Shown piece by piece: positions 30,735-46,676 of a stretch of 60,552 bases of DNA. Source of the stretch: a virus; IMG/VR virus record IMGVR_UViG_3300048548_000571, positions 1-60,552 of that record; one strand, 5' to 3'. The position numbers were made by a program, and so were the translations under genes. The first letter of the stretch is position 1; the number at the start of each line of letters is the position of its first letter. The notes under the pieces are model-generated. The model did not search any database. It saw only the letters and a program-made list of their open reading frames with translations, and was not told where the DNA came from.

Positions 30735-30773
30735 CAAGCACACGGAAGGGGTTTGGTTTGGCAGTATCGCCAA

Positions 30774-30847
30774 CTCCTCCACCTGGAATCGAACCAGGAA
30801 CCTATTGATTAACAGTCAACCGCTCTGCCTGATTGAGCTATAGAGGA
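30774..30847 (-). tRNA. tRNA-Asn (GTT)
   Basis: 74 nt on the minus strand. Acceptor stem TCCTCTA/TGGAGGA, D arm AGCTCAATCAGGCAGAGC, anticodon loop containing GTT in CTGTTAATC, T arm with GTTCGATTC, and discriminator G. The 3' CCA is not encoded. It decodes Asn AAC/AAU codons. Confidence 0.95.
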
Positions 30848-30898
30848 ATGGGAGGGGGCGCTGTTTCTAAAATACAGATCTTTTGTACTCCCCCAAAG

Positions 30899-30971
30899 TG
30901 GAGAATAGGAGACTCGAACTCCTGACATCCTGCTTGCAAAGCAGGCGCTCTACCAGCTGAGCTAATTCCCC
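30899..30971 (-). tRNA. tRNA-Ala (TGC)
   Basis: 73 nt on the minus strand. Acceptor GGGGAAT/ATTCTCC, D arm TAGCTCAGCTGGTAGAGC, anticodon loop TTTGCAA (anticodon TGC), T loop GTTCGAGTC, discriminator A. Its nucleotides 8-10 (TAG) are also the stop codon of the dioxygenase gene just upstream, so gene and tRNA overlap by 10 nt. Confidence 0.95.
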
Positions 30972-31561
30972 CCAGAACCGACTCGTTCAGTTTCGTCTAG
31001 ATAACTGAACCAACCAGTAATGATGTACTTATCTTCATTCGGAGCAACTTGTCCCTTATGAGTATAAGTCCAGTCTGATGGCCAGATAACTGTCTTACCT
31101 TTTTTAGGTTTGACAGTATAGTTCTGGTGCATAAAATCTGTACCACCACCCTCTTCAATATCATTAAGATATGTCATCCAGACTAGGTGTCTGTTGTTAT
31201 GAGGGTGCATTGCATTGCATCTTTCAGTATGCCACTTGTAAAAACCTTCACCAGGTTTGTACCACTGAATGTTAACAGATTCAGCAACTCCCCATGGAGA
31301 GTATACGTTACAAGTAGGATATTTGTCAATATATTTCTTCCCAACGTCGAATAAATGCTCTAGATATTCTTCGACAGGAGGAGCAAGATGCTTCTCAAAT
31401 GGATATATGGTAAGATCTGTAGACTTCTTGGCATCAGTGACACCAGTTGTAGTCTCTCCAGGATTTCTGCGATTTATTGAAAAATCCGAATTTTGAAAGA
31501 AGTCAATTAGCCTGTCGCAAACTGAAACATCTTTAATTTTCGCTTCTAAAATAAAATCCAT
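30962..31561 (-). CDS. 2OG-Fe(II) dioxygenase, prolyl-hydroxylase-like, inside tRNA cluster
   Basis: 199 residues, starting at the ATG at 31561. The longer frame to 31648 is rejected because its extra 29 residues are a translation of tRNA-Leu. Core motifs: GEGFYKWHTERCNA (His111, Glu113), LVWMTYLNDIEEGGGTDF (127-143), KGKTVIWPSDWTYTHKGQ (His168) and KYIITGWF. The first metal motif is HTE, as in the 7.3-kb paralogue's HYE. The stop codon TAG lies within tRNA-Ala. It is co-transcribed with tRNA-Leu upstream and tRNA-Ala downstream. Substrate unknown. Confidence 0.85.
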   Translation of the reverse strand: MDFILEAKIKDVSVCDRLIDFFQNSDFSINRRNPGETTTGVTDAKKSTDLTIYPFEKHLAPPVEEYLEHLFDVGKKYIDKYPTCNVYSPWGVAESVNIQWYKPGEGFYKWHTERCNAMHPHNNRHLVWMTYLNDIEEGGGTDFMHQNYTVKPKKGKTVIWPSDWTYTHKGQVAPNEDKYIITGWFSYLDETERVGSGGN

Positions 31562-31572
31562 TATATCCTGAA

Positions 31573-31654
31573 TGTCGATGAGAGGACTTGAACCTCCACG
31601 GATAAATCCACTGGAACCTAAACCCAGCGCGTCTACCAATTCCGCCACATCGAC
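31573..31654 (-). tRNA. tRNA-Leu (TAG)
   Basis: 82 nt, class II with a long variable arm. Acceptor GTCGATG/CATCGAC, D arm beginning TGGCGGAATTGGTAGAC, anticodon stem CTGGG/TCCAG around the loop TTTAGGT (anticodon TAG), variable arm TGGATTTATCC, T loop GTTCAAGTC, discriminator A. It lies 4 nt after tRNA-Thr. It reads CUA and related Leu codons. Confidence 0.95.
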
Positions 31655-31658
31655 GGAG

Positions 31659-31731
31659 AGCCTGTTGACAGACTTGAACTGACGACCTACGCTTTACAAA
31701 AGCGTTGCTCTACCAGCTGAGCTAAACAGGC
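31659..31731 (-). tRNA. tRNA-Thr (TGT)
   Basis: 73 nt on the minus strand. Acceptor GCCTGTT/AACAGGC, D arm TAGCTCAGCTGGTAGAGC, anticodon loop TTTGTAA (anticodon TGT), T loop GTTCAAGTC, discriminator T. Nucleotides 8-10 (TAG) double as the stop codon of the CpeT-like gene, which overlaps the tRNA by 10 nt. Confidence 0.95.
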
Positions 31732-32258
31732 ATGCGAGCAAATTCAAAGAAACCATAACGACTGCCCCAAATTTGCTTCTTGGTCCCCACGAGATAACCA
31801 CGATCTATTACATGATAATAGTCTTCACCAAGAATTGCTTCATTCTTGACATAAGTTTCACCATCTCTATGGGGAACAATGCAATCACAACCTTCAACAG
31901 ACCCGATATACTCGGATTTGTTTGGGTTGTATGATAGAATTGTATCACATGTACCCTTATGTGTCAAGCCCTCGTCGTATTTGATTTGATCGAGATTGAC
32001 ACATCCACGATACCGATTTTTGTCGAAATCGTAGTTTTTCATGCGAATCTTACCATTTTCTAGACATGCCTCAACAATAAACTGTCTATAGGGAGCATGC
32101 AACTGATAGTTGTATGCTTGTTCCCCATAAAACATATTGTCGGTCCCAGGCACCTTTTTGTGGTGCAAACGGACCATAGCAAACCTAGATGGATAAGAAA
32201 ATGCCTGAACTTTGTTTTCCCACGTTCCCTCAAACCATTCTATAAATTGTTCAATCAT
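31722..32258 (-). CDS. cpeT: CpeT-like phycobiliprotein chromophore lyase
   Basis: 178-residue member of the CpcT/CpeT family, which in cyanobacteria attaches or handles bilin chromophores on phycobiliproteins; cyanophage copies are known. Family features: FYGEQAYNYQLHAPYRQ (the EQAYxYxLxxPYR block), GSVEGCDCIVPHRDGETYVKNEA, DYYHVIDRGYLVGTKKQIWGS and terminal FEFAR. The start is the ATG at 32258, overlapping the upstream TGA; a longer frame to 32360 would run through that gene. The stop TAG is formed by tRNA-Thr nucleotides. Probably active early on host phycobilisomes or on light-harvesting turnover. Confidence 0.85.
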   Translation of the reverse strand: MIEQFIEWFEGTWENKVQAFSYPSRFAMVRLHHKKVPGTDNMFYGEQAYNYQLHAPYRQFIVEACLENGKIRMKNYDFDKNRYRGCVNLDQIKYDEGLTHKGTCDTILSYNPNKSEYIGSVEGCDCIVPHRDGETYVKNEAILGEDYYHVIDRGYLVGTKKQIWGSRYGFFEFARMPV

Positions 32259-32517
32259 CTTTAGGTAATAGTTCAGGATTATCAACAGTGAGTTCAAACA
32301 TACAAGGATGACATTCTTCTGCCATAAGATATGAAGACCATTTGTATAGATCTTCATCATCCCAGTCTTGACCTTCCAACGCTTCGGTTTGAATCGCTGG
32401 ATGATCTTGGACGATCAGCGGAAGTTCGTCAAAGGTATATGGTATACCTTGGATGAAATACATGCGTACAACGGTGCCCATATAAAAGACATAGGACTGT
32501 GTTAGTGAGTATTTCAT
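32251..32517 (-). CDS. Hypothetical protein, 88 aa
   Basis: Not recognised by function. Soluble acidic protein MKYSLTQSYVFYMGTVVRMY... with an EALEGQDWDDEDLYKWSSYL segment and a C-terminal CHPCMFELTVDNPELLPKDD. Its stop overlaps the start of the CpeT-like gene, implying coupling with it. It lies 33 bp after tRNA-Leu(TAA). Confidence 0.55.
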   Translation of the reverse strand: MKYSLTQSYVFYMGTVVRMYFIQGIPYTFDELPLIVQDHPAIQTEALEGQDWDDEDLYKWSSYLMAEECHPCMFELTVDNPELLPKDD

Positions 32518-32550
32518 AACATTTCCACTACATTTTATTTAGTAGTGGAA

Positions 32551-32633
32551 TAGGGCAAGCGAGACTTGAACTCGCACGAACTATGTTCTTCAGATTTTAA
32601 GTCTGATGTGTCTACCGATTCCACCACTGCCCC
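32551..32633 (-). tRNA. tRNA-Leu (TAA)
   Basis: 83 nt, class II. Acceptor GGGGCAG/TTGCCCT with G-T pairs, D arm TGGTGGAATCGGTAGAC, anticodon stem TCAGA/TCTGA around the loop CTTAAAA (anticodon TAA), long variable arm, T loop GTTCAAGTC, discriminator A. Reads UUA/UUG Leu codons, which are rarer in high-GC marine Synechococcus hosts. Confidence 0.95.
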
Positions 32634-37889: not shown

Positions 37890-39268
37890 GTTGTAACTTC
37901 GGAAGTCTCGTCAGGCATACCGTAAGAGTCTCTGACTAGTGTCACATAGGTGTTACCTTTAGCACCTTTAGTATCTAGTGCGTGGTTCAACTTTGCAACG
38001 AGATATACACCACTGTGTTCTTTGTCGTGTATGTCTTCACCTTTCTTTGATTTCTCATTAGTAGGGACATAGTTAGGAACTAGAACCTCAATGGTATCAC
38101 CGATCTTTAGGTCCAATCTAACAGGTAGTTTAATCTTCAGTTGTTGATTGTTCTGTGACTCTAGTCTAGAAATGTTCTGTGCAATATAATTCTTCTGCCA
38201 GTCAGGGAACTCGGCAGTGTCTTTCTTGCCACCATCCTTGTCTTCTGGAGAGGCAACCTCCTTACCATCAAACCATGTCTCATGATCCAATAGCACCGAC
38301 ATGACTCTACTTGGACTCTTTGCAAGTTCTGATTGACCTTTAGCAAGACCAGACTGTGATCCCAAGTGCTTCATGTCATCAAAGTTATCAGCTAGATTGT
38401 ATGCATACTCTTCATAAGCACCAGTGCTAAAGTTATAGAAGCAGATGACATTAGAGTAAGCACCCGCTCTTAACTTCGCAAGGATGTCAATCTCATTTTG
38501 AAAGTCAACGTCTAGAATTTTGTTGGTAGAATTTTGCTCGTTCAATTGAGCAGGTTCTAGAGTAAATGTATCGACAGGAGGATTCTTCTCCACATCATTC
38601 AGAAGATCAATCGACCTGAAATTATATCCCTCACGGTTTTCATAGAAATAATATCCAGCAGTGCCTGATGATTTTTGTAATGAACCACCAACAGAAGAAG
38701 ATGAACCACCAACAGAGAGACCTTCATTGACTGCTTTACTTCGCAGTGAATTGATGATAGAGAAGGGAGTCTTTTTACCTGGAAGCATCCTCACTTTGAA
38801 TAGAGTAGGATCTCCTCGATATGTTTTAGTAGAAGACAGACCTTCAGTTAACAGAGTTCTAACTAATGCATCTGGTTTTCCTGCCAGGGTTAGAGGAACC
38901 TTTTCTGTTTCATTCAGCAGTGCTTCTCTAGAGATGAGTCCAAGAGAATACCTCTGAAATCTCTCCGAACTAAACCTGTTGTAAACTTTATAGACCTTGA
39001 ATGAATACTCAACAACATCATCACCGCCAGCGCCATATCTAAACTTCATGTTGACATCTTCATACCCCTGAATAGGTAGTGAAGAAATCAAGTTCACACC
39101 AGTGTCTACGATGTCTAGGGTGCCATGAATTGTAGGTAAATCGATGTCTTCAAAGTAATCAAACCTAGTAACAAGGTTACCAATAGGTTTTGATTCCCCT
39201 TCAAGATCAACGATTTCAATTTCTTCTAGTATAAGACTAGATGCATATGGTAACTCTTGTTCTGCCAT
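37886..39268 (-). CDS. gp27-like baseplate hub protein, 460 aa
   Basis: Position between the gp5-like gene and tail genes, length, and a beta-barrel-like N-terminus (EEIEIVDLEGESKPIGNLVT, FDYFEDIDLPTIHGTLDIVD) support a T4 gp27/late-control-D-like hub protein. This protein forms the trimeric hub holding gp5. Further features: PFSIINSLRSKAV (about 164-176), typical of gp27-like folds; an EQNSTNKILDVDF strand; and IKLPVRLDLKIGDTIEVLVP near the C-terminus, typical of the hub's second barrel. Sequence similarity is low, so the call relies partly on context. Confidence 0.65.
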   Translation of the reverse strand: MAEQELPYASSLILEEIEIVDLEGESKPIGNLVTRFDYFEDIDLPTIHGTLDIVDTGVNLISSLPIQGYEDVNMKFRYGAGGDDVVEYSFKVYKVYNRFSSERFQRYSLGLISREALLNETEKVPLTLAGKPDALVRTLLTEGLSSTKTYRGDPTLFKVRMLPGKKTPFSIINSLRSKAVNEGLSVGGSSSSVGGSLQKSSGTAGYYFYENREGYNFRSIDLLNDVEKNPPVDTFTLEPAQLNEQNSTNKILDVDFQNEIDILAKLRAGAYSNVICFYNFSTGAYEEYAYNLADNFDDMKHLGSQSGLAKGQSELAKSPSRVMSVLLDHETWFDGKEVASPEDKDGGKKDTAEFPDWQKNYIAQNISRLESQNNQQLKIKLPVRLDLKIGDTIEVLVPNYVPTNEKSKKGEDIHDKEHSGVYLVAKLNHALDTKGAKGNTYVTLVRDSYGMPDETSEVTT

Positions 39269-41787
39269 TAACCCACCACACTGTTGAGATTATAATATGA
39301 ATGTAAACTATGGTCACGACCCTCGTCTATGGTGCCCTCACTAGTAGGTTGAGCACCCGTAGCCGCAGTCTTTCTGGGACTCGCTGGGTTATTTATCATT
39401 GCGATTGTCTGTCCCCTCTCGGAAGCAGACGGTCCCTGTAAGGAAGCAATCTCACGACTCACTGGTTGTAATGATGATGTCTTTTCTGGTGGAGTTGGAG
39501 ATAATGTTGCCTTTGGTTTCGGTCCTGGTCCTACAGTTTCTCTTATTTTATTAGTAAATTCCTCAAAAGTAATCGGATTACCATTTGGATCAAAATATTT
39601 ATCTACTGCTCTACCAATACCATCTCTACCACTCACGAAAGTTCCGATACCAGGAACTCTAACACGTTCTCTCGTTCCTTTATTAGTTCCAATTTTATCA
39701 ATTCTTCCCAAGGAAGGTCTCAAATCATCAGCAGTAATTTTATCATCGGACGGAGTATCTGGTACAACTGGCGGATCATCTGGTTGTCTAGGTGGTTTCT
39801 TCTCCCACACCCGACCCGCAATGAAGTCAGCAACAAATTGCTTGTAATTTTCTGGATCATTACCATCAGATGCTGGTGCATATGCATTCACAATAGCAGC
39901 GAACGCTTCATTAGGATCTTCAAATGCTTCCAAGTTCATGTAACCACTATGGTTCTTGTCCCATAGTCTGACGAACTCTTTGACGGCATCCTCTCTCGTT
40001 TCAAACTGCATGAAAGTTCCGTCTGTATTCCTCATATTGAATGGATTGTTTCCACGCTCACTCTTACCCCACCCTGTCTCCATTGCAGAGATAGCAGCAG
40101 CAACTTCAGGGTGCTTTGCACCAGCAGCCTTCGCCATCTCATAGATCTCACCAGCATACTCCTGCTGCTCTTCATTTGATGCCATTGGGTTCCCAGTAGC
40201 AGGTGCATTAGAAGCAGGACCAGAGTTAGGTGATCCTGATCTAGATCTATTGCCACCACCAAACAAGTTCTTTAAAGCATTTCCAAGACTAGCAAAGACT
40301 CCTTTCTTTTCATTAGAACCATCAGCACCACCGCCACCACGTCCTTCACTAGTTACCTTTCCACCCTTCGCCTTTGTTACCAGTGTTGATGGGAGACCGA
40401 ACGCTTGAGCAAGAGGTCTAGCAACTTGAGCAATTTGAGAAGATGCTTCTGCATTATCAACAGAACCTGCTAATTGTGTAGTAGCTGCAAGTGCTGCACC
40501 ACCTGGAACCATGAAGACTAACTTCATTGCATCCTGTAGTAGTTGCACCTGGCGATCAGTCTCTCCACCACCTAGCGAAGGTAACTGCATCGGTGTAAAT
40601 CCAACCTTACCTCCAAGAGATGACTGTGGTTTTTCAGTTCCTTGTTCATACTGTGGAGTAGAAATATTGTAATTGTTGTTGACAACAGGTGATTGAGGTT
40701 GGGGTGGTGCTTCTTGAGGAACAGGTCTCACCTTACCATCCATCGCACTTGCTTCACCTTGAGTGTAGTTATTGTCAAGTGGGATGACCATCTCATCACC
40801 ATGCAACTCTGCAAGGTAACCACTGTCAGGACCAGAGATAATACCACCAGTTTCTGCGCGTGGAACATCATCTTCTTCAGGATCCTCACCGTATTGAGGA
40901 GTATCAACACTCATGTCCTCACCAAGTCCCTCAAACTGATCGTCTAAAGACTCATCCCCTTTTGTTGTGAGATCATCAGCCGAGAAAGTGTCTGATACTT
41001 TTAGTTTGTCGTCCGCACGATTAATATCAGCAGCGCCTTGCTTCTTATCAGTCTCTGATTTTGCCAGAGCAGTTTGCTCATTGATAGCATCAGCAATTTT
41101 GTTTAACTTGTCTTCAATGCTATCTGTTCTTTGACTTAACTGATTAACAACATCAGTCTTGATTGCTTGTACACCAGTAGCAACGTCTTTAGTTTCTTTT
41201 ACATTGTTGTTGATAGACTGTGCCGTCTTCTCTAGTGACGCAGCAATCTTGTTTACAGCAGAAAGAATATCCTCTCTACTAACTCTCTGCTTGGAACCTG
41301 ATGCTGCCTCTGCAGTTTCTTCACCAGTGTTGGGAACCTTTTCTTCCTGTGGTTCTACATCTTCTGGTGGTCTCTTGGCACTAACAAAATTATAGTTATC
41401 AAACTGTTCACGAAATCTCTGTGTGGCATTCTTTGTTTTTACTGCCTTGCCGTCAGCGTCTCTGTTATCTACAAAGTTCCAGAACTGTGCCTTTGGATTC
41501 TTTAGCAGTTTGACACGATCAACTGCCTGCTTAATGTCCTGCTTCTTACCAGTGATGTAAGACCCACCGAACTTACTCTTCAGTGCTGACTTAAAAAAGT
41601 ATCCTTTCTCTACACCTAACTCTTCTAGACTATCATAGCCTGCTTTCTTTGCCTTCTCTTCTGCTACTTCTCTCTCTTGTCTAGCAAATTTTCTGGCAGC
41701 AAGAACTTTAGAGATCGCAGCACCCATGTGCCCTGGACCTTTATCGTAGTCAACTGTGCTAGAGAATCCCTCTGTAAATGCTGCCAT
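39268..41787 (-). CDS. Tail hub/tape-measure-region protein with glucosaminidase-like domain, 839 aa
   Basis: The N-terminal half is helical with coiled-coil segments (DILSAVNKIAASLEKTAQSINNN). The middle has a Gly-rich GGIISGPDSGYLAELHGDEMVIPLD motif typical of tape-measure-region proteins (split around residues 313-337). A C-terminal domain (about 548-670) matches muralytic glucosaminidase/FlgJ-type folds: YAGEIYEMAKAAGAKHPEVA, AAISAMETGWGKSERGNNPF (with the likely catalytic Glu) and AYAPASDGNDPENY. It probably digests peptidoglycan during infection, replacing the lysozyme domain missing from gp5. It overlaps the gp27-like gene by one base. Confidence 0.7.
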   Translation of the reverse strand: MAAFTEGFSSTVDYDKGPGHMGAAISKVLAARKFARQEREVAEEKAKKAGYDSLEELGVEKGYFFKSALKSKFGGSYITGKKQDIKQAVDRVKLLKNPKAQFWNFVDNRDADGKAVKTKNATQRFREQFDNYNFVSAKRPPEDVEPQEEKVPNTGEETAEAASGSKQRVSREDILSAVNKIAASLEKTAQSINNNVKETKDVATGVQAIKTDVVNQLSQRTDSIEDKLNKIADAINEQTALAKSETDKKQGAADINRADDKLKVSDTFSADDLTTKGDESLDDQFEGLGEDMSVDTPQYGEDPEEDDVPRAETGGIISGPDSGYLAELHGDEMVIPLDNNYTQGEASAMDGKVRPVPQEAPPQPQSPVVNNNYNISTPQYEQGTEKPQSSLGGKVGFTPMQLPSLGGGETDRQVQLLQDAMKLVFMVPGGAALAATTQLAGSVDNAEASSQIAQVARPLAQAFGLPSTLVTKAKGGKVTSEGRGGGGADGSNEKKGVFASLGNALKNLFGGGNRSRSGSPNSGPASNAPATGNPMASNEEQQEYAGEIYEMAKAAGAKHPEVAAAISAMETGWGKSERGNNPFNMRNTDGTFMQFETREDAVKEFVRLWDKNHSGYMNLEAFEDPNEAFAAIVNAYAPASDGNDPENYKQFVADFIAGRVWEKKPPRQPDDPPVVPDTPSDDKITADDLRPSLGRIDKIGTNKGTRERVRVPGIGTFVSGRDGIGRAVDKYFDPNGNPITFEEFTNKIRETVGPGPKPKATLSPTPPEKTSSLQPVSREIASLQGPSASERGQTIAMINNPASPRKTAATGAQPTSEGTIDEGRDHSLHSYYNLNSVVG

Positions 41788-41805: not shown

Positions 41806-41813
41806 TATTTATG
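41806..41813 (-). promoter_or_regulatory. Late promoter motif (CATAAATA)
   Basis: Minus strand CTCATAAATATCAGG, 19 bp before the ATG of the 839-aa gene and overlapping the 3' end of the tape measure gene. One base away from the T4 late consensus. Confidence 0.5.
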
Positions 41814-44800
41814 AGTACAGAGCAATGTTCTGTAGTGCCTTGCCGAAGCGAAGACCCCTGTGTGGAGAGGGAGGAGCAGTAGTGCTCCCAGACGCTGAAT
41901 GATGTAACTCTGGTTCCTTCGGTGGTGCCTGCATGATCAAGATGGTAGACATACCTTCTCCCTCCTCATCATACTCAAGAATTTCAGGAGCAAATCTTTT
42001 AGTAGCCTCAATCAAATCCTTGTTTGTATCAGAAGCATTGTATGCGTCAAGCATTTCTGACACTGGTTGGAAGGAATACACCAGGTTCTTCATAACTTTT
42101 TCAGGACCCTCTTCACCCACAACAATTTGTTCTTGTCCTTCTAGTCCAACATCTCCGCCATCTTTATATCCATCACCTTTATAACTTAAGTGGAAGATAG
42201 CAGTGTTCGTGCCCTTGATTAGCGCATTGATGCCTTCACCTTTGCCAGGAGTATTTCTTACATCATCCAACTGCACAGGAACTTTTGGAAACCCTGGCAT
42301 GTTAATGTCAACTGCATATGGTTTAGGACCAGAGTGGTTGTGTCTGTTAGCACCATGTCTAATCAATTCAGCTATCTCTTTGTCAGTCATGTCTTTGGTG
42401 AATGGTCTTGCATCGGATGTCTCTGGTTTCATACCCATAGAGACCATCTTCTTAACGACAGGTACGGTGTCTTTAATCAGACCAGACTGACTCTTATCTT
42501 GGTTCTCGAAGTGTGCATGCGACCACCCACCAACTTGCATGGCAGTAGAACCAGTCAAACCGAAGCGCAAATCATCGGTGTTACCAAATTCTAAATCAGA
42601 AAACTCACTTGGAAGTGCAGAACCATCACCATCATAATTTCCTCTACCACCAAAGAGATTGTTAATATTATTCCAGAGACCACTTATCATTCCAAGAGGT
42701 CCACCTGTTGTCGAAGGTTCTCTCTTCAAATCCTCTTGCTCTGCAACATTCAGACCCATGCCACCCAACATTGCATCCTCTTCATTAGTATCACCTACGT
42801 TGTTAATTGCATTAGCAATAGGTTCCATCGAACCTCCAATGTTTGGACGAGCTAATGATTTTGGTACATCAAATTCTTCTGTCAATTTAGAAGCAACTTG
42901 AGTGAACATAGGAGCAACTGACTGTGCCATTGGTCCCACCTCTCCCAAAAAGTTTTTGGATGCTGCAACTAATGCACCACCAATCGGAGACAATAGTTTG
43001 CTAGTATAATCATCAGGAATAATTGCTTCAGTTCCATGAAGCACAGCAGGTCCCGCTTTAGTAAGACCACCAACTTCTTTCTGCTGAACACCATCCACCA
43101 TCTTCTGATCTTCAGCGGTGAATTCTCTGCCAGCAATAGCATTGAAAATATCATACATCAATAGTCCAGTATCAGCAGCAATAGATACTGCTTCAGCAAC
43201 CGCTGGAACAACAGCACCAACACCACTAACTGCAGCAGGAGCAGTCACTGCAGTAACTACACCAGCAGTACCACCAGCAGCAGCAAGCCATGCTCCTACA
43301 GCGTCACCCCTGTTTGCTCTATCAACAGCATCAGCAGCACTGACAGCAGATCCAGCAACAGGAACCATCCTTCCACCAAACTTTGTCGTTGCTATTGCTA
43401 TTCTTTTAGCAACAGGAGAATTTTTTACAAAAGCAAGTCCTCTTTTACCATATCGTATAGCATCATCACCAAATCTCTGACCGAATCTCATCACGCCACT
43501 AGCAGCCCTCTGGACACCTTTGATAGCATCATCACCAAATTTTGTTAGGTTAGTTTTCCCCTTGTTAAGGAGATTGCCTGCTCTCTCCTTATTTCTGGAT
43601 ATGAATCCACCAACACGCTCTTTATTTCTAGCTACAACACCACCAAGGTTTTCCTTCTGCTTGTTTAAAAAGTTGCCAGCTCTATCCTTCTGACTGTTTA
43701 AGAAGTTACCTGCTCTAGCCTTCTGTCTATTTAAAAAGTTACCTGCTCTACGTTTTAGATTGCTTGGCGCAAACTTCATCCTCAAGAGACGAAGACGTGA
43801 CCTCAACCATTTAGGTGCAAACCTTTTCCACAAGAATTTAGCAAACCTCTTTAGGTAGTTGCTTAATCCACCGCCGCCACCACCTCCTCCGCCTTTGGGA
43901 GGACCATCATCTTTCTTGGTGCCAAAGGTGCTAGCTACATCTTCCTGCCCCGTCGCCATTGCTTTGTCAACAGCAGTCTGGCGTTCATCTATTTCTGCTT
44001 TCTTTGCTGCTGTCTGTGCTTCAAATGCACCAAGAATAGCATCAAACTTATCGTTCAGTCCAGAATGTGTCGTCTCAATACTATTCAGATTGCTGATGGT
44101 TGTTGCCATCGCATCAGAAATCATCAGGTTCTGTTTCTTCAGTTCATTATCAATACTATCAAGTTGTCCTTGAATTTTCTGAAGATTTTGAACAACTGTT
44201 TTTAAAATCCTGTTGTTAGTGACATTACCAGTCGCTTCTCTCTTTTTCTTCTCTGGTTTTTGATAGTCACTACCCAGAGACTTGTTCACTGCCTCTAGCA
44301 TGCCAGGTGGCAGTAGATCTACAATGTCAGATAGATCTGGTTGCTCCTGGTCTCTTTGCTGAACAACTTCTTGTACTGCTTGCTCAACTACCTCTACTGC
44401 AGGTTCTAGGTTCTCTTTTACCTCCTCTTCTGCATCCTTTACTATCTCCTCCGCCTCATCGTCTATCTTTTCTTCTACTTCATCTGCCTTTTCTTGCTTC
44501 TCTTCTACTTTAGGCAGTTTCTTCTCTTGAATTTCAGCAACTCTTGCTTTAGTTGCTTCCTCTTCAATTTTTCTGTCAACTTGTTCCCTAAATGGTTGCT
44601 CTAAATACTGATCAACCAACCAGGTTTGGAATTCTTTTAGCGCCTCATAATAATCTGTAAACCCAAGACCACTCTCATTAAATTGTGGATACCCTCGGGT
44701 ATCTTTCTGCATGTTTGCAATGACAGTATCAGCGTCAGCATCAGACAGTTTAACTGTTGATGTATAACTACCACCACCAGGTTTTGTCTTACCTGTGAGT

Positions 44801-44919
44801 TTCCAGTGTAATTCCTTCCAAGTGTTACTAGTGTGTGCTGTTCCACCAGGACGACCCTTCCCATACCACGGTTGGTCGGGGTCCATTACATGAAATGGTG
44901 GATCGATGTTAAAATTCAC
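41809..44919 (-). CDS. Tape measure protein, 1036 aa
   Basis: The long gene directly after the tail chaperone frame, as in most tailed phages, so the likely tail-length ruler. It starts with GTG at 44919, overlapping the stop of the -1 frame (TAGTG), with GGAG about 9 nt upstream. Features: acidic/basic coiled coil (about 130-200); SIDNELKKQNLMISDAM helices; a GGGGGG linker at about 350; basic 11-residue repeats RAGNFLN(R/S/K)QK (about 388-455); then a hydrophobic stretch with likely membrane-inserting helices (about 505-600). A PAVLHGTEAIIPD motif occurs near 630. The C-terminus ends ...PSPHRGLRFGKALQNIALYS. Confidence 0.75.
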   Translation of the reverse strand: MNFNIDPPFHVMDPDQPWYGKGRPGGTAHTSNTWKELHWKLTGKTKPGGGSYTSTVKLSDADADTVIANMQKDTRGYPQFNESGLGFTDYYEALKEFQTWLVDQYLEQPFREQVDRKIEEEATKARVAEIQEKKLPKVEEKQEKADEVEEKIDDEAEEIVKDAEEEVKENLEPAVEVVEQAVQEVVQQRDQEQPDLSDIVDLLPPGMLEAVNKSLGSDYQKPEKKKREATGNVTNNRILKTVVQNLQKIQGQLDSIDNELKKQNLMISDAMATTISNLNSIETTHSGLNDKFDAILGAFEAQTAAKKAEIDERQTAVDKAMATGQEDVASTFGTKKDDGPPKGGGGGGGGGLSNYLKRFAKFLWKRFAPKWLRSRLRLLRMKFAPSNLKRRAGNFLNRQKARAGNFLNSQKDRAGNFLNKQKENLGGVVARNKERVGGFISRNKERAGNLLNKGKTNLTKFGDDAIKGVQRAASGVMRFGQRFGDDAIRYGKRGLAFVKNSPVAKRIAIATTKFGGRMVPVAGSAVSAADAVDRANRGDAVGAWLAAAGGTAGVVTAVTAPAAVSGVGAVVPAVAEAVSIAADTGLLMYDIFNAIAGREFTAEDQKMVDGVQQKEVGGLTKAGPAVLHGTEAIIPDDYTSKLLSPIGGALVAASKNFLGEVGPMAQSVAPMFTQVASKLTEEFDVPKSLARPNIGGSMEPIANAINNVGDTNEEDAMLGGMGLNVAEQEDLKREPSTTGGPLGMISGLWNNINNLFGGRGNYDGDGSALPSEFSDLEFGNTDDLRFGLTGSTAMQVGGWSHAHFENQDKSQSGLIKDTVPVVKKMVSMGMKPETSDARPFTKDMTDKEIAELIRHGANRHNHSGPKPYAVDINMPGFPKVPVQLDDVRNTPGKGEGINALIKGTNTAIFHLSYKGDGYKDGGDVGLEGQEQIVVGEEGPEKVMKNLVYSFQPVSEMLDAYNASDTNKDLIEATKRFAPEILEYDEEGEGMSTILIMQAPPKEPELHHSASGSTTAPPSPHRGLRFGKALQNIALYS

Positions 44920-45110
44920 TAGTAACTACTCCGAGATGCCTCTTGTTTTTTCTTTTCCTCGTTGATGTGATTAATCAATAGGGATGTGTATACTTCACGC
45001 TCCCAAGGCATCATGTTTTCGATCTCTGTCAAGCTATATTTATGGTACTGCATGAAAGCAAAGTTAGTCTTGTAATAGCCCTCCAAACTATTATGGAAGA
45101 CCGCTATCCG
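44919..45110 (-). CDS. -1 frameshift extension of the tail assembly chaperone
   Basis: Open frame of 63 codons in -1 relative to the gp26-family gene, running from the slippery site to a TAG that overlaps the tape measure GTG. It reads RIAVFHNSLEGYYKTNFAFM..., continues SLTEIENMMPWEREVYTSLL and ends KKKQEASRSSY. There is no ATG or GTG with a ribosome binding site in its first 18 codons; the first ATG would cut into the conserved-looking part. Made by frameshifting, it would give a gp26 fusion of about 299 residues. This is the G/GT arrangement of tail chaperones upstream of tape measures. Confidence 0.75.
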   Translation of the reverse strand, partial: RIAVFHNSLEGYYKTNFAFMQYHKYSLTEIENMMPWEREVYTSLLINHINEEKKKQEASRSSY

Positions 45111-45130
45111 AAAAAACTTTGTAATCCCTC
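45078..45130 (-). promoter_or_regulatory. Programmed -1 frameshift signal
   Basis: Minus strand, in order: SD-like GAGGGA (45125-45130), 8 nt, slippery T_TTT_TTC in the zero frame (45110-45116), 8 nt, then a stem-loop GTCTTCC (45095-45101) / GGAGGGC (45078-45084) with a 10-nt loop. The 7-bp stem includes two G-U pairs. The zero frame ends two codons past the heptamer (GGA TAG). The layout matches dnaX-type bacterial -1 signals. Confidence 0.75.
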
Positions 45131-45817
45131 AATCGTATACTCACATTCGTTACCTGTATTGGGATTAGTAACAGTAAATGTATGAGTAAGACGAGGCATT
45201 GACTCATAAAACTCTTGGATAGATTCAAACTGTTTGGTAGTCAGTGACTCAACGAACTCACGAAACTCTTTCTTGGTTGTCGTAGAAGAATCATACACCT
45301 CCTCACCATCAAACAGTTGATCGACATGATCAGCAATAAAGTTAAAGATCTCGTCAGTTTCAATACCTTTCTCTAAAAACTGCGACTGAATAAACCTATC
45401 CATACTAGGATAGTTCATGATAATACCAGTGGTATCCGTCAACATAATTTTGTTAGTGTGTCCCTCTGGTCTGAACACCTCAACATCATCGATGTTAATG
45501 TTTGCAGTTACAGGTGTGGTATTGTCATCATTACACGTAACTTTCATCTCAATCATCTCACCGACAGCAGCGGCACGGATCTTGAGAAATAGATACTCCA
45601 GATCAAAAGAAGGTAGTTGATCTACCTTAATCCTACTGATCACACATGCTTTAAGAACATTCTTGACAGCATTGATGATCTGTTTTTCATCTTCAGACTC
45701 TAATGCTACTAGTAATACTTTCTCTTCCTTTACTAGAAATGGTCTGTATTTAATAGTCTTTCCACTAGAAGGTAACTTCAGTTCATACTGTGGTACACCA
45801 AGTTTTGGTAATGCCAT
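45104..45817 (-). CDS. 26: gp26-family baseplate/tail assembly protein, 237 aa
   Basis: Matches the T4 baseplate protein gp26 family: N-terminal LPKLGVPQYELKLPSSGKTI, then YRPFLVKEEKVLLVALES (residues 25-42), LEYLFLKIRAAAVGEMIE (about 75-92), and a helical C-terminal half. T4 gp26 is listed as a baseplate hub subunit. Here the gene lies immediately before the tape measure and ends at a frameshift signal, which argues for a tail assembly chaperone. A CTAAATAAATA late motif stands about 27 bp upstream; no strong Shine-Dalgarno sequence is seen. Confidence 0.8.
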   Translation of the reverse strand: MALPKLGVPQYELKLPSSGKTIKYRPFLVKEEKVLLVALESEDEKQIINAVKNVLKACVISRIKVDQLPSFDLEYLFLKIRAAAVGEMIEMKVTCNDDNTTPVTANINIDDVEVFRPEGHTNKIMLTDTTGIIMNYPSMDRFIQSQFLEKGIETDEIFNFIADHVDQLFDGEEVYDSSTTTKKEFREFVESLTTKQFESIQEFYESMPRLTHTFTVTNPNTGNECEYTIEGLQSFFG

Positions 45818-45917: not shown

Positions 45918-46676
45918 TCAGTTCAACCCTAATGCATCACGAGCAGATTGTGCTGCCTGATCAATTGCTTTCCTGACACCAGAGTCAGATCCACCAATGT
46001 ATCCCTTCAGGTTGTTGTGTACAATAGTATGCTTGGCATAGTAGAAGTTGACAGTCACCTTTGTGATCTGCGAGGTGCCATAGGATAGAGGAACAGAATC
46101 AATAGAGTATGGATAGCAGTCCTCTAGAATATACATCATCGATGCTCTTTCATTCGGAGCACTAGGACCCTTTTCAGTCTTGGTAATCTTCAGTTGTGCC
46201 ATGTATTTGGATGGGAATTGCATCCTCACTTCACGTTCTCTTGCCAATGGGGATTCTTTCTTGAGATCTTTTAGTCTGACACCTTTCTTCTCTACAATTA
46301 CTTCCTTGCCAGAACCATTAAAGATATAGTTGGTCCAAGCATTAAAAAATTTGAGTGGAGTCATGTTAGCATCACACATCCATGTCAGTGACAAGTCACT
46401 AAAAAATCTAGCGTATGGATAGTGAACTTGATTCTCTCCCAAGTATCTGCCCTGCAACTGTCCAGTTGCTGCCTGTAAGTTTGGCAGTTGTGCCTCTTCA
46501 CACATGATGTGCAGAATTCCCTCATCTTTTTCATACTCTGGGAAGACAACAGCAAGTGCTGATTTCAAATCCGATGCTGACTCGGGGAAGGCAAAGTCTA
46601 CATCATAACCATTAGTCATAGACATGCCGCCGTAAGCAGACATCTCTACCAAAAAATTATGCAAGGATTTAGTCAT
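45918..46676 (-). CDS. gp54-like tail tube initiator / tube-fold protein, 252 aa
   Basis: Resembles tail-tube-fold proteins of T4-like phages: YPYARFFSDLSLTWMCDANM, FFNAWTNYIFNG (about 108-119), ASMMYILEDCYPYSIDSVPL and ITKVTVNFYYAKHTIV near the C-terminus. In T4, gp54 starts tail tube polymerisation on the baseplate, next to gp48. Here gp48 lies close by on the other strand, which supports gp54, though gp19-like tube proteins share the fold. The start may instead be the ATG at 46643, since the first ATG overlaps the divergent promoter. Confidence 0.6.
   Translation of the reverse strand: MTKSLHNFLVEMSAYGGMSMTNGYDVDFAFPESASDLKSALAVVFPEYEKDEGILHIMCEEAQLPNLQAATGQLQGRYLGENQVHYPYARFFSDLSLTWMCDANMTPLKFFNAWTNYIFNGSGKEVIVEKKGVRLKDLKKESPLAREREVRMQFPSKYMAQLKITKTEKGPSAPNERASMMYILEDCYPYSIDSVPLSYGTSQITKVTVNFYYAKHTIVHNNLKGYIGGSDSGVRKAIDQAAQSARDALGLN

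Follow-up and report, generated by a model that had tools for sequence, protein, structure and literature searches.

Comparative sequence analysis gives us high confidence that the locus described here would produce a tail assembly chaperone (TAC) in two lengths by -1 ribosomal slippage on the heptamer T_TTT_TTC. The gp26-like protein is very probably the short form, TAC-N, and the gp26-gp51 frameshift product is very probably the long form, TAC-NC. The locus lies in a 60,552-nucleotide stretch of DNA from a virus of marine cyanobacteria, hereafter the window, and its features are listed in Table 1. The original prediction of a -1 frameshift signal at this place was supported by the conservation of the site, by coding in the -1 frame and by putative stimulatory elements. 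The window is very near the Synechococcus phage S-CAM1, in whose records both proteins were found with 100% identity; in the RefSeq record of this phage (NC_020837.1, 88153-88336; L083:3017-3200) the 184 nt from gp26 to the next gene are unannotated, yet they code for the gp51-like domain.

Table 1. Features of the gp26-like locus and its neighbours in the window (E, E-value).
Feature	Position	Strand	Remarks
Putative TAC-N: gp26-like gene, 237 aa, zero frame	45104..45817	-	PF12322 E 2.6e-70; PHROG 150 E 5.2e-79
Internal Shine-Dalgarno (SD)-like GAGGGA	45125..45130	-	8 nt ahead of the heptamer
Slippery heptamer T_TTT_TTC	45110..45116	-	in phase
Zero-frame stop TAG	45104..45106	-
Predicted downstream hairpin, 5' arm	45094..45102	-
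Predicted downstream hairpin, 3' arm	45077..45085	-
Putative TAC-C: -1 frame after the slip, gp51-like (FF + 63 codons + TAG)	44919..45116	-	PHROG 634 E 3.7e-28; PHROG 150 C-terminus E 2.9e-6
1036-aa ORF, GTG start, candidate tape measure gene (position and length only)	41809..44919	-	PHROG 4200 E 0.0037, weak
Tail tube protein gene, directly upstream of the gp26-like gene	45918..46676	-	PF23849 E 1.3e-49

The 3' end of the gp26-like open reading frame (ORF) reads CAA AGT TTT TTC GGA TAG, and the slip site claimed for the end of this gene was present and in phase, on the minus strand, which the prediction had left unsaid. The claimed GAGGGA was found at the expected distance, and the claimed 7-bp stem-loop turned out to be the core of a 9-bp hairpin with three G-U pairs, which begins 7 nt after the heptamer in the 9-bp form and 8 nt after it in the 7-bp form. 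The predicted RNA fold of this hairpin had an energy of -12.8 kcal/mol and a z of -3.39 against 200 shuffles, and the minimum free energy and centroid structures differed in the outer pairs. Both putative stimulators, the SD-like element and the downstream structure, are thus found in the window at the level of sequence and predicted fold. The -1 frame was open for the anticipated 63 codons after the slip, and its TAG (44919-44921) overlapped the GTG of the next ORF (44917-44919) by a single shared base. The claim that this frame lacks a credible start also held: the first ATG is codon 21 counted from the slip, within the conserved domain, and the TTG at codon 10 (45084-45086) has no clear SD sequence ahead of it, as judged by eye. 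The window shows no enrichment of TTTTTTC, with 7 occurrences on both strands vs 11.7 expected, and among the 90 stop-to-stop ORFs of at least 100 codons, T_TTT_TT in phase and no more than 30 nt from the stop was observed once, in the gp26-like ORF.

Next, we searched for the slip site in related loci. By tblastn, the protein of the -1 frame was found in 561 and the gp26-like protein in 886 of 50,697 phage records. A first set comprised the best 80 of 598 relatives, which are therefore close relatives, and made 81 loci with the window; a second set held 80 loci related to the methylophage Melnitz, and a wider set 21 phage records hand-picked for diversity. In agreement with the original prediction, a scan of the window and the best 80 of 598 relatives showed that heptamer and -1 frame were kept in 81/81: all of them have an X_XXY_YYZ heptamer in zero-frame phase that overlaps an open -1 frame, and all carry the gp51-like domain in that frame. 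The in-phase T_TTT_TTC started 10 nt before the stop in 79 of these loci and 13 nt before it in the other 2, and a second in-phase copy was found in none of the 81 gp26 genes. The codon before the two Phe codons always ended in T (AGT 35, TCT 28, AAT 11, GCT 3, GAT 3, GGT 1); given the codon usage of gp26, the nominal log10 P for this pattern was -59.5 in 65 representatives, a value that is overstated, as the loci are related. GAGGG occupied the SD position in 65 of the same 81 loci (window plus the best 80 of 598 relatives).

The Melnitz-related set gave a similar picture, with T_TTT_TTN in 79 of 80 loci and gp26 running off the contig in the remaining one. The last base was A in 28, C in 28, T in 22 and G in 1, so that Phe-Leu stands in place of Phe-Phe with the six U unchanged; the -1 frame of 78/80 scored as TAC-C, and one more was too short for scoring. 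Both KVP40-like loci that the scan yielded had T_TTT_TTC. Within the 21 diverse records, T_TTT_TTC was found in 11, T_TTT_TTT in 4 and T_TTT_TTG in 1, and no heptamer was detected in 5 (Cygsa01, UPM2146, VP-1, K483 and SFP10). The heptamer was likewise absent from all 15 SFP10-like loci, where a TAC-C-like domain was still found in the -1 frame of 15/15 (E about 1e-5 to 2e-4). These SFP10-like loci (L188-L202, L094) carry TAATT where VP-1, K483 and Cygsa01 carry TAATG, which suggests an ATT start or a link of unknown kind. S-SCSM1 (L103:2950-3060) keeps the heptamer; behind its stop there seems to be an insertion, after which TAC-C lies in the +1 frame, and this is either a real variant or a sequence error. 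Since the heptamer was present in 81/81 and 79/80 loci, and the gp26-like ORF was the sole in-phase case among the 90 ORFs of the window, a chance run of T was ruled out.

The RNA downstream was then folded and set against shuffles that were synonymous in the -1 frame. It folded better than these over 39 nt, with a mean z of -2.53 and p<0.05 in 47 of 64 loci (64 of the 65 representatives were tested), and control windows in the same test gave z of -0.23, -0.54 and 0.15. The register of the structure varied by clade, and it was weak or absent in several loci (L016, L018, L031, L037, L059 and others). Downstream structure is therefore common but not universal, and a single universal hairpin was rejected. 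The 9-bp helix of the S-CAM1 type was counted on the window and its 24 closest loci, where 84.9% of the cells could pair, vs 38.7-62.2% when the helix was slid. Pairs with changes on both sides numbered 2/9, not above shuffles (392/500 reached this value); the double-change cells, 9 vs a shuffled mean of 3.6, and the covariation score did exceed them (0/500).

Database records annotate gp51 as a gene of its own, as in S-RSM4 and P-SSM2, and the -1 frame could accordingly be a separate small gene that is translated, once ribosomes reach the end of gp26, through coupling or reinitiation, a reading that we consider very unlikely for this locus. Among the window and the best 80 of 598 relatives, 46/81 have an in-frame ATG 5 codons past the slip; in VP-1, K483 and Cygsa01, which lack the heptamer, the stop is part of TAATG, and T_TTT_TTC occurs together with such a TAATG in three Vibrio phages (TCU-VP03-AIR1, Va3 and D480). 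However, 26 of these 81 loci (the window among them; best 80 of 598 relatives) have no ATG ahead of -1 codon 20, and 9 of the 26 lack GTG and TTG as well. When these 26 loci were compared over a stretch beginning after the zero-frame stop, the differences fell 25/24/51% on -1 codon positions 1/2/3, and this bias towards position 3 indicates that -1 coding begins right behind the stop, ahead of any ATG. Moreover, the start annotated for gp51 in S-RSM4 is codon 21, inside the conserved domain, and the run of T is kept even in loci that have an ATG. Because the coding pattern precedes any ATG, a separate gp51 gene was rejected as the main reading for the window. Judging by sequence, a separate short product may still be made in loci with an ATG at codon 5 or with both heptamer and TAATG. 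A 'joined' flag on gp26 or gp51 features was found in 0 of 22 non-T4 records.

The same two proteins could also arise from a mixed mRNA if RNA polymerase added one U or dropped two at the T6 run during transcription, which a run of six T could permit, and the run of T would be common to both mechanisms; six T is a short run for transcriptional slippage, and this process would need no in-phase heptamer, SD-like element at a fixed distance or structure, unlike ribosomal slippage, and we give it almost no credence.

To characterize the proteins, both were compared with profile libraries. PF12322 covered residues 9-236 of the gp26-like protein, which also matched PHROG 150 (T4 gp26, baseplate hub), and PHROG 634 (gp51, baseplate hub assembly catalyst) covered residues 2-63 of the -1 frame with profile positions 55-116 of 121; NCBIfam gave no match for gp26 or the -1 frame. 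An AlphaFold2 model of gp26, built from the window protein and 55 viral-locus sequences, reached a pLDDT of 89.6. When 948 Foldseek-ranked chains were aligned to it with VIA-align, the HK97 tail assembly chaperone 2OB9 came out on top with a Z of 6.8, below the caution line of 8, over 79 residues with an rmsd of 3.8; the next rows were 3KLU (6.5) and 3FGX (6.2), which we take to be TAC relatives too, followed by 5IR0 (4.4), and the first unrelated row scored 3.1. Foldseek itself, run with the gp26 model against the PDB, returned nothing at E<=0.001 and placed 2OB9 fifth (E 2.2), and the best E in a profile search of PDB sequences was 0.097. The viral structure library returned mostly gp26-family and unnamed phage proteins, and added little beyond sequence. 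The match of the predicted model to the HK97 chaperone is thus of moderate strength. Collectively, the protein family, the -1 extension, the tail tube gene upstream and the predicted fold, with the HK97 chaperone as best VIA-align match, support the earlier proposal that gp26 is a tail assembly chaperone.

The 1036-aa ORF that follows had been called the tape measure gene. Its position fits this claim, and its identity was not confirmed by sequence: besides the weak PHROG match, T4 gp29 gave an E of 0.47 (BLASTP) and 2.6 (phmmer) against this protein, and a best E of 0.084 against 73 downstream ORFs of related loci. We therefore treat this ORF as a tape measure candidate on account of its position and length. 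It is poorly conserved among relatives: only 7/73 of these ORFs matched the 1036-aa ORF at E<=1e-3, whereas gp26 and the -1 domain were kept in all of these loci. Elsewhere in the window, the ORF of 839 aa that follows the tape measure candidate (39268-41787, minus strand) gave a weak match to an endolysin family (PHROG 12490, E 2.6e-7, residues 27-80), and five clustered tRNA genes (Asn, Ala, Leu, Thr, Leu) were observed at 30773-32633, also on the minus strand.

Profiles of TAC-N and TAC-C were run on 35 sequences, a set made up of four gp26/gp51 proteins together with open frames of at least 80 codons from two loci. Among these, T4 gp26 was matched by TAC-N (1e-13) and not by TAC-C (2.5), and TAC-C recognized the gp51 proteins of T4 (6e-7) and phiAS4 (5e-12). 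Matches of TAC-N to gp51 were weak (T4 0.024, phiAS4 7e-5), and phiAS4 gp26 barely matched TAC-N (E 0.067). PHROG 150 spanned residues 3-248 of T4 gp51 with TAC-C at the end of the protein, so that both parts lie in one frame. T4 gp26, like that of the cyanophage, belongs to the TAC-N family, and T4 gp51 to the same family with a TAC-C end; unlike the probable single frameshifted gene of the cyanophage, T4 gp26 and gp51 are two genes that lie on opposite strands. In T4 these two genes serve for what, in the cyanophage, a single gene seems to provide. According to PMC3004832, T4 gp51 is required yet absent from the particle, and some genetic studies put gp26 in the hub.

Under ribosomal slippage, most ribosomes would read gp26 to its stop and yield TAC-N. 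A fraction would pause as GAGGGA pairs with 16S rRNA and the downstream hairpin is met, and would slip back one base on T_TTT_TTC, with both tRNAs re-pairing to UUU; continuing in the -1 frame, these ribosomes would make TAC-NC, a predicted 299 aa with a C-domain that resembles gp51. By analogy with lambda G/GT, TAC-N in many copies and TAC-NC in few may coat the tape measure protein, and TAC-C may recruit tail tube subunits. The signal resembles that of dnaX, where an SD-like element, the heptamer A_AAA_AAG and a hairpin follow in the same order; here, by contrast, the heptamer is T_TTT_TTC and the hairpin is not universal. The slip sequence of lambda, GGGAAAG, is likewise different. PMC5009743 describes gpG and gpGT of lambda, where a tail gene is extended by a -1 frameshift, as very probably happens at this locus, and the product binds the tape measure protein, as the present one may do.

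It is possible, although we rate it at somewhat less than even, that this family makes one chaperone ratio in at least three ways: by -1 slippage on T_TTT_TTN, where each of the four bases occurs in last place, in cyanophages and in several relatives; by a coupled stand-alone C-domain gene without a slip site in VP-1, K483 and Cygsa01, and with a possible ATT start in the SFP10-like phages; and by gene duplication with fusion in T4 and phiAS4.

A 2022 study by Vladimirov and colleagues reportedly names gp26 and gp51, and its abstract reportedly deals with frameshift signals in chaperone genes of the T4-like group. For the TAC genes of this group, PMC10885494 and PMC12846349 both cite the paper by Vladimirov, Gautam and Davidson (Virology 2022). 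PMC12846349 attributes to it -1 frameshift signals of the poly-T kind in T4-like TAC-N genes, and PMC10885494 attributes to it a solution with two genes in some phages of the group. The novelty implied for gp26 frameshifting and its chaperone role in T4-like phages did not seem to stand, since both are, by these accounts, already in print, and the main claim is mostly already known. A literature search of titles and abstract openings found no report of the cyanophage heptamer. Four points are added here, which may overlap with the 2022 study: how widely the heptamer occurs, that its last base varies, how the downstream RNA folds relative to shuffles, and that SFP10-like phages have no slip site.

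The frameshift reading has consequences for how these phages are described. Cyanophage gp51 has been given as about 20% of the usual length, without the first ~200 residues, in Sullivan 2010 (PMC3037559), and frameshifting would explain this short gp51, as the missing part of ~200 residues would be supplied by gp26. The annotation would be correctable in many of the 561 records with the gp51-like domain, because no joined product was flagged in the non-T4 records and the -1 frame of S-CAM1 is blank. The lambda-type G-T frameshift is stated in PMC5009743 to be conserved in long-tailed phages 'except T4', and this reported lack would not extend to the cyanophage relatives of T4. If the three-way reading is true, the family would be a natural record of frameshifting gained, lost and replaced.
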